A DNA stretch of 64,000 nucleotides from Jatrophihabitans endophyticus (GTDB taxonomy: Bacteria > Actinomycetota > Actinomycetes > Mycobacteriales > Jatrophihabitantaceae). The notes below the pieces were generated by a model that was not told where the DNA came from, did no database searches, and was given only the letters and a program-made list of their open reading frames with translations. Of the stretch, positions 1 through 1,428 are shown one piece after another. Position numbers and translations under genes: made by a program. Each line of letters starts with the position of its first letter. The stretch's first letter is position 1. The stretch lies in assembly GCF_900129455.1 (NCBI RefSeq), contig NZ_FQVU01000002.1, positions 62,001 to 126,000 of the forward strand, written 5' to 3'.

Positions 1-187
1 CGTCGAGCAGGATCTCGCCGGCGTCGGGGTGGTACAGCCCGTAGAGGACGTTCATCAGCGTCGACTTGCCGGCGCCGTTCTCGCCGAGCAGGGCGTGGAT
101 CTCGCCCGGCTCGACGGTGAGGTCGATGGCGTCGTTCGCGACGAGCGAGCCGAACCGCTTCGTGATGCCCCGCAGTTCCAGCTTCAC
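1..187 (-). CDS. ABC transporter ATP-binding protein, sugar/nucleoside type (3' part outside window)
   Basis: Only the first 62 codons are present; the gene runs off the left edge. The reading from a GTG at 187 gives an N-terminal ABC strand, then a Walker A motif (GENGAGKS, about residues 36-43) followed by [17 protein letters not shown]. The wording [16 protein letters not shown] is typical of the ATPases of ribose/nucleoside importers (RbsA or NupO/YufO type). The preceding gene on the same strand encodes a BMP-family binding lipoprotein, the usual partner, so this is probably the energising subunit of a nucleoside or purine-type importer. Walker B and the signature motif lie outside the window. 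The substrate is inferred from context only. Confidence 0.88.
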
Positions 188-281: not shown

Positions 282-315
282 CGACGGCCCGGGGACGAGT
301 GTCCCCGGGCCGTCG
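282..315 (-). terminator. Hairpin between the BMP lipoprotein gene and the transporter ATPase gene
   Basis: A perfect 15-bp inverted repeat (282-296 and 301-315) with a GAGT loop starts 7 bp after the lipoprotein stop codon. There is no clear T-tract, as is common in high-GC genomes. Sitting inside an apparent operon, it probably stabilises the lipoprotein message or lowers read-through, so that more binding protein than ATPase is made. This role is inferred. Confidence 0.6.
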
Positions 316-321
316 GCGGCG

Positions 322-1428
322 TTACTTGGCGGCCTGCGCGGCGGCGGCGCTGCCGAGCCCGGTGCCGCCCGCGACCGGGAAGATCACGTCGGCACCCTGC
401 TGGATGAAGTTCTGCGTGATCTGCTGGCCCTTGCCCTGGTCGGTGAAGCTGCCGGCGAAGGTGCCCTTCTGCGTGGACTCGTTCCAGCCGAGCACCTGGA
501 CCTTCTTGCTCTTCTGCTTGTTGTAGTACTGCACGCCCTCGTAGAAGCCGTCCATGTAGACCGTCACCGGGGCGATGGCGAGACCGCCGTAGGTCGCGAC
601 CTTGCCGCTCTTGGAGTAGCCCGCGGCGAGGTAGCCGCCGAGGAAGCCCGACTGCGCGGTGTTGATCTGCAGGCCCTGCACGTTGGAGCCGTTGCCGGCG
701 CCGTCGACGAGCGCGAAGTGCAGCTTCGGGTTGGCCTTGGCGGCGTTGTTGATCGCCTCGCCCATCAGGCCGCCGACGCCGACGATGAGCTTGCAGCCCT
801 TGTTCACGAGCGCGCGGATGTTCGGGGCGTAGTCGGCCTGGGTCTTGGACGACACGTACTGCACCTTGGCCTTGCCGGCGGTCTGCGCGGCCTGCATGCC
901 CGACCACGACGCGGCGTTGAAGGACTTGTCGTCGATGCCGCCGGTGTCGGTGACCATGCAGGCCGAGAAGCTGGCGTCCGTCTTGCCGGAGCTCGGCGGG
1001 GTGAGCTCGGTCTTGCCCTTGGGCTGGGCCTTCGAGGTGATGGTGATCTTGCCGGCGATGATGTCGGCCTTGACCTTGTTCACCTCGGACTTCAGGCTGT
1101 CGTCGACCTTGCCGTCGAACTGGTGGTAGGACGCGAGCCCGGTGCCGCCGTTCTTGAGGTCGCCGACGGTGTCGACCTTGGGGAAGATCCCGGCCGAGGC
1201 GTTCTCGACGGCGAGCTGCACGGCCTGCTTGTCGTTCTTCAGCACCGTCGTCAGGAAGACGTTGCAGTACTGCTTGGCGGTCGTGCAGCCGTCGGAGTCC
1301 ACCCACATGACGGCCGGCTTCTGGCTGTCGGACGAGTCGTCCCCGGAGTCGGTCTTCGCACAGGCACTGAGGCCGAGGCTGAGCGCAGACACCGCGGCGA
1401 CGAACGCCACGCAACCCTTGCGAACCAA
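322..1428 (-). CDS. BMP/PnrA-family ABC transporter substrate-binding lipoprotein, circularly permuted
   Basis: A 368-residue exported lipoprotein with a TTG start behind an AAGGGGAA ribosome site. The signal peptide ends in the lipobox LSAC (Cys23). Canonical BMP/PnrA/TmpC proteins begin with a VTD.GGIDDKSFN motif, continue to a VAGGTG motif and finish with a V.WVD.DG ... LT.V.K ... DII.GKI segment. Here that final segment comes first (about residues 37-137), a Pro/Lys linker follows (138-151), and only then the usual N-terminal motif (MVTDTGGIDDKSFN, from about 157). The protein ends just past VAGGTGLG (about 352-359). All parts of the fold are present in cyclically shifted order. It likely binds a nucleoside or similar ligand for the adjacent ABC importer. 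Family assignment is firm; the permutation is read directly from motif order. Confidence 0.93.
   Translation of the reverse strand: MVRKGCVAFVAAVSALSLGLSACAKTDSGDDSSDSQKPAVMWVDSDGCTTAKQYCNVFLTTVLKNDKQAVQLAVENASAGIFPKVDTVGDLKNGGTGLASYHQFDGKVDDSLKSEVNKVKADIIAGKITITSKAQPKGKTELTPPSSGKTDASFSACMVTDTGGIDDKSFNAASWSGMQAAQTAGKAKVQYVSSKTQADYAPNIRALVNKGCKLIVGVGGLMGEAINNAAKANPKLHFALVDGAGNGSNVQGLQINTAQSGFLGGYLAAGYSKSGKVATYGGLAIAPVTVYMDGFYEGVQYYNKQKSKKVQVLGWNESTQKGTFAGSFTDQGKGQQITQNFIQQGADVIFPVAGGTGLGSAAAAQAAK

Follow-up and report, generated by a model that had tools for sequence, protein, structure and literature searches.

The open reading frame at positions 322–1428 (minus strand) of the window, i.e., the entire 64,000-nucleotide stretch of DNA analyzed here, very probably encodes the substrate-binding lipoprotein of a nucleoside ABC importer of the PnrA/BMP type, circularly permuted by a natural event in this lineage. 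We consider the permutation itself highly likely to be real and, somewhat less firmly, the permuted protein likely to be functional; the rearrangement looks like a natural and fairly young event. The initial annotation had proposed a cyclically shifted BMP lipoprotein, and this is borne out: the last third of the protein comes first, the key residues are apparently kept, and the relatives, the trees of the two blocks and the operon all agree with this reading.

Layout of the gene and order of its blocks

The translated product comprises 368 amino acids, and all its features lie on the minus strand. It begins at a TTG codon preceded by GGGGAAAG, with a signal peptide (residues 1–22; 1363..1428) that leads into the lipobox LSAC and shares the start MVRKG with the canonical relative L009. 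The lipobox Cys23 and the 14-residue linker A (residues 24–37, AKTDSGDDSSDSQK; 1318..1362) follow, lipoboxes such as LSAC/LTAC occupying the equivalent position in relatives. Next comes the moved C-terminal block, hereafter C-block (residues 38–137; 1018..1317), which reads PAVMWVDSDG...DIIAGKITITSKAQPK, ends in SKAQPK, contains the predicted ribose contacts Asp44 and Lys64 and aligns to residues 232–320 of the solved BMP protein 7x0r. It is joined to the N-terminal block (N-block) by linker B (residues 138–153, GKTELTPPSSGKTDAS; 970..1017), which connects the former C- and N-termini and is absent from the C-termini of relatives, in accordance with the earlier proposal that a new linker at about residues 138–151 joins the old ends. 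The N-block (residues 154–368; 325..969) reads FSACMVTDTGGIDDKSFN...VAGGTGLGSAAAAQAAK, includes VTDTGGIDDKSFN and VAGGTGLG, corresponds to positions 3–203 of the Pfam Bmp profile and closes with SAAAAQAAK. The stop codon (322..324) falls, by comparison with relatives, at the point where their C-block starts, and a perfect 15-bp hairpin (282..315) lies 3' of it, a position at which relatives carry hairpins that differ in sequence. The seam peptides of the window gene are SQKPAVMWVDSDG and SKAQPKGKTELTPPSSGKTDASFSACMVTD. A perfect 16-nt direct repeat encoding GGTGL occurs once in each block (354–369 and 1134–1149), away from the seams.

Profile and pairwise comparisons show the exchange of the blocks directly. 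The Pfam Bmp domain (PF02608) covers only residues 156–365, equivalent to profile positions 3–203 of 301 (132.6 bits versus a cut-off of 24.1), whereas in the orthologue from G012, the closest canonical relative, it extends as a single piece over positions 4–291 of 301. On 7x0r, the order of the blocks was reversed and not collinear: with phmmer, residues 153–362 matched chain positions 24–222 and residues 41–134 matched positions 232–320, the latter match being weak when taken alone. In tblastn searches against relatives, the C-block matched mostly with 35–58% identity and E values down to 1e-34. With regard to membership in PF02608, the score of the N-block alone exceeds the cut-off, both domain halves are present, as are the lipobox and the ABC importer neighbors, and the collinear N-then-C order, common to all relatives examined, is missing, family descent being independent of order. 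The best NCBIfam match, NF047927 (putative B6 ABC substrate-binding protein), was rejected, with 45.6 bits versus an equivalog cut-off of 400.

The columns conserved in at least 90% of cases among 32 relatives are retained almost completely, namely 63/63 in the N-block and 16/17 in the C-block, so that the combination of permuted order and preserved conserved columns is far beyond chance.

Relatives, seams and divergence of the moved block

Comparison of block order in related genomes, which the initial annotation had called for, yielded canonical proteins throughout, with none permuted among the approximately 53 distinct relatives. In tblastn searches with the 2 blocks, all 65 relative loci having both (~53 distinct genes) displayed the N-then-C order, and among the fetched loci the C-then-N order was confined to the window gene. 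With the window protein (P0001) as the query, no second permuted protein was found in overlapping sets of 61 relative, 24 family, 399 order, 395 class and 396 phylum genomes, and the window gene was the sole match covering residues 1–368 in all these searches. Several matches starting early in the query (residues 72–118) were fetched and all proved canonical; for strong matches that were not fetched, the order was judged by match coordinates only. For one distant locus, L088, the search detected no C-block. A search of the window genome revealed no second, close copy of the binding protein, and no close copy of the operon was found in 2 genomes of the same genus (76%–79% complete); thus, there is no independent copy, and the permutation is seen in one assembly. 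DNA matches of 27–38 bases in one of the same-genus genomes, G002, were rejected as belonging to unrelated genes.

The seams of the rearrangement can be read against the canonical relatives. In the latter, GLGSAAIAKSGGK is followed by the C-block with nothing between, and the protein ends in ...KITIKSKSQPK at the stop codon. The moved block of the window gene terminates in SKAQPK, whereas the protein itself stops after ...AAAAQAAK, where the moved block formerly began. All 3 seams are in frame and located exactly at the block edges. Linkers A and B total approximately 31 residues, a length within the 18–41 observed for the lipoprotein linkers of relatives. From the sequences, the simplest description would be that the C-block was lifted from the 3' end and inserted midway along the former lipoprotein linker; the hairpin after the stop codon, as in relatives, indicates that the 3' side has otherwise kept its arrangement. 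The rearrangement could have originated by excision and re-insertion or by tandem duplication followed by deletions. We searched the seams for a long repeat that might have driven the rearrangement, and none was present. Each block edge ends with a Lys AAG codon, which would be compatible with 3-base microhomology, but may have arisen by chance.

The 2 blocks share their ancestry but differ in divergence. Both fall into the L006–L009 clade (support of 0.85 for the N-block and 0.94 for the C-block), which argues against a chimera of unrelated genes, and the GC content at third codon positions (GC3) in the 2 blocks is 1.0 and 0.99. The identity to the same-operon canonical orthologue, the nearest relative, is 74% for the N-block and approximately 55% for the C-block. 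On a fixed tree, the branch leading to the window gene has a length of 0.64 for the C-block and 0.16 for the N-block; no other of the 22 tips has a higher ratio, although one short-branched tip comes close. Consistently, the likelihood-ratio test for acceleration of the C-block gave a 2dlnL of 18.6 for one extra parameter, the next highest value of ten tips being 8.8. We read the fast change of the C-block as an adjustment after the move, and relaxed constraint could also account for it.

Predicted structure, nucleoside site and operon

The structure of the permuted protein was predicted, as had been recommended, with AlphaFold, using an input alignment (A3) of fragment rows of relatives in which row sets were tested for proper alignment. 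One acceptable model resulted (pLDDT 79.5, pTM 0.78), the other 4 reaching pLDDT values of 58–72; it is weaker than the canonical control (pLDDT 91.8, pTM 0.88), a gap that may partly stem from a poorer, unpaired alignment. The control model matched solved structures from end to end (Z 41.1, 295 residues, 1.5 Å), whereas the permuted model aligned to canonical BMP structures over residues ~148–368 only (Z 13.5–16.8), and its N part superimposed on 7x0r at 3.8 Å over 204 residues, compared with 1.5 Å over 295 residues for the control. The model supports, short of proof, a compact two-lobe fold.

The new ends had been placed in the segment connecting the lobes, which turned out to be wrong: structural mapping equates residue 368 with residue 216 of BmpD, whose C-terminal domain spans residues 116–242 and 270–323 (PMC7093131), and thus the new ends are located inside the C-lobe rather than in the lobe connector. 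As modeled, the cut falls between a helix and a strand of the C-lobe, in a loop that precedes the hinge by about 25 residues.

The nucleoside contacts of BmpA, Phe27, Asp225 and Lys242 (PMC13325309), correspond to Phe170, Asp44 and Lys64 of the window protein, based on the 7x0r alignment and motif spacing, and are predicted contacts. Because Asp44 and Lys64 reside in the moved block, the site forms only if this block refolds into its old place. The genomic neighborhood is that of an importer. The ATPase gene starts at 1..187 (minus strand) and runs beyond the window (L003:10613–12187), and further downstream are genes for an 829-aa double permease, thymidine phosphorylase and adenosine deaminase; the canonical operon of G012 has an identical gene order except for one extra ORF. 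The presence of thymidine phosphorylase and adenosine deaminase in the operon, together with the known PnrA, BmpD and BmpA proteins, suggests by analogy that the ligands are nucleosides. The earlier supposition that the protein is probably used is indirectly supported by the intact lipobox, the conserved residues, the operon position and the intact frame.

Several other features of the locus are worth recording. The permease (L003:8127–10616, minus strand, outside the window) consists of 2 importer permeases fused into 829 aa with 2 BPD_transp_2 domains; the fusion is a single open frame also in G012, G011 and G019, the 2 permeases being separate in G297. A long hairpin between the binding-protein and ATPase genes is kept in L006–L013, L052 and L053 with a different sequence each time, which suggests a conserved RNA structure (3 relatives were folded). 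L003:6235–6452, situated between the gene for thymidine phosphorylase and that for adenosine deaminase, contains tandem ~19-nt units (CGACTGGCGACGTCGGGGC-like) followed by an apparent reverse-complement run.

Alternative explanations and relation to known binding proteins

That the permutation is known from one assembly only, and that both blocks contain the same perfect 16-nt repeat, could point to a local assembly error, in which the assembler swapped 2 segments of an ordinary collinear gene. We consider this unlikely, since the repeat is at no junction, the 3 junctions are in frame and at exact domain edges, there is no second copy elsewhere in the genome, and the gene is embedded in a 1.04 Mb contig of a 10-contig genome. 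Furthermore, acceleration specific to the C-block is not an effect that misassembly causes. Marginally less probable still is that the rearrangement is real but its product is decaying or non-functional, a possibility with which the faster evolution of the C-block and the structure prediction, weaker than that of the canonical relative, would be compatible. However, the frame and the lipobox are intact, nearly all conserved residues are kept, including the predicted ribose contacts, GC3 is near 1, and no further close copy of the protein that might replace it is found in the genome. The different identities of the N-block (74%) and the C-block (~55%) to the nearest relative might also be explained by a fusion of the 2 blocks from different BMP paralogues, which we regard as very improbable, given that both block trees recover one family clade and that in most relatives, too, the C-block evolves faster than the N-block.

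The preferred reading thus remains a natural permutation. The protein would fold as the usual two-lobe clamp, with the moved segment re-forming the final portion of the C-lobe sheet, the portion of the N-lobe that returns through the hinge and the C-terminal portion of the C-lobe. Linker B would span the old ends and thereby connect the lobes a fourth time, the residues Asp44 and Lys64 would return to the cleft beside the Phe170 motif, and the nucleoside would still be bound and passed to the fused permease, while the lipid anchor would be attached to a segment of the C-lobe and no longer to the N-lobe. In sum, we think it probable that this is a lineage-specific permutation, with canonical orthologues in the same operon place in sister genera, that shifted the tether off the N-lobe and onto the C-lobe, added a fourth connection independently of TpMglB-2 and was followed by fast evolution of the moved block.

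Solved PnrA/TmpC/BmpD-type lipoproteins (PF02608; 7x0r, 2fqw, 6shu and 6y9u) are homologous to the window protein over both blocks and possess the same binding motifs, and, as for these proteins, the window gene is adjacent to a sugar-type double ATPase and a BPD_transp_2 permease. Unlike in these proteins, the blocks are exchanged, an extra linker is found at the old termini, and the anchor is attached to a C-lobe segment. The closest known parallel is TpMglB-2 (Tp0684), a naturally circularly permuted glucose-binding lipoprotein of "Type Ic / Cluster Bc", in which a fourth inter-lobe crossing is present, the first 3 N-lobe strands are at the C-terminus, and the permuted part shares only about 13% identity with its counterpart; this permuted form is widespread (PMC4990184). 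Both are lipid-anchored, circularly permuted type I binding proteins with a fourth crossing, predicted in the case of the window protein, but TpMglB-2 belongs to the MglB family, binds sugars and is cut in the N-lobe, whereas the window protein is cut in the C-lobe and is found in one genome only. Indeed, the 3 N-lobe strands that mark the C-terminus of "Type Ic" proteins are not located there, the N-block being whole and the cut at BmpD 216. In structural re-alignment, TpMglB-2 (6bgc) was the sole match spanning residues 35–368 among the matches listed (242 residues, Z 13.2, 10% identity); given the similarity of the lobes and the different cuts, the full-length match may pair opposite lobes. 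The earlier remark that permuted BMP proteins are not known to have been described stands insofar as the literature searched contained none, but a permutant from another family, TpMglB-2, had been reported (PMC4990184). A permuted type I binding protein is therefore known, and what differs here is the family and the cut.

Natural circular permutations usually become visible only after long divergence, and their origin and accommodation are rarely seen. Here, canonical orthologues still occupy the same operon position, which suggests a fairly young event; all seams are readable, with the C-block and N-block still 55% and 74% identical, respectively, to the same-operon canonical orthologue, and it can be measured how the moved block responded to the permutation. 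The window gene also makes it possible to ask directly whether a binding protein can work when its membrane tether is attached to the opposite lobe, a question relevant to importer docking and biosensor design.
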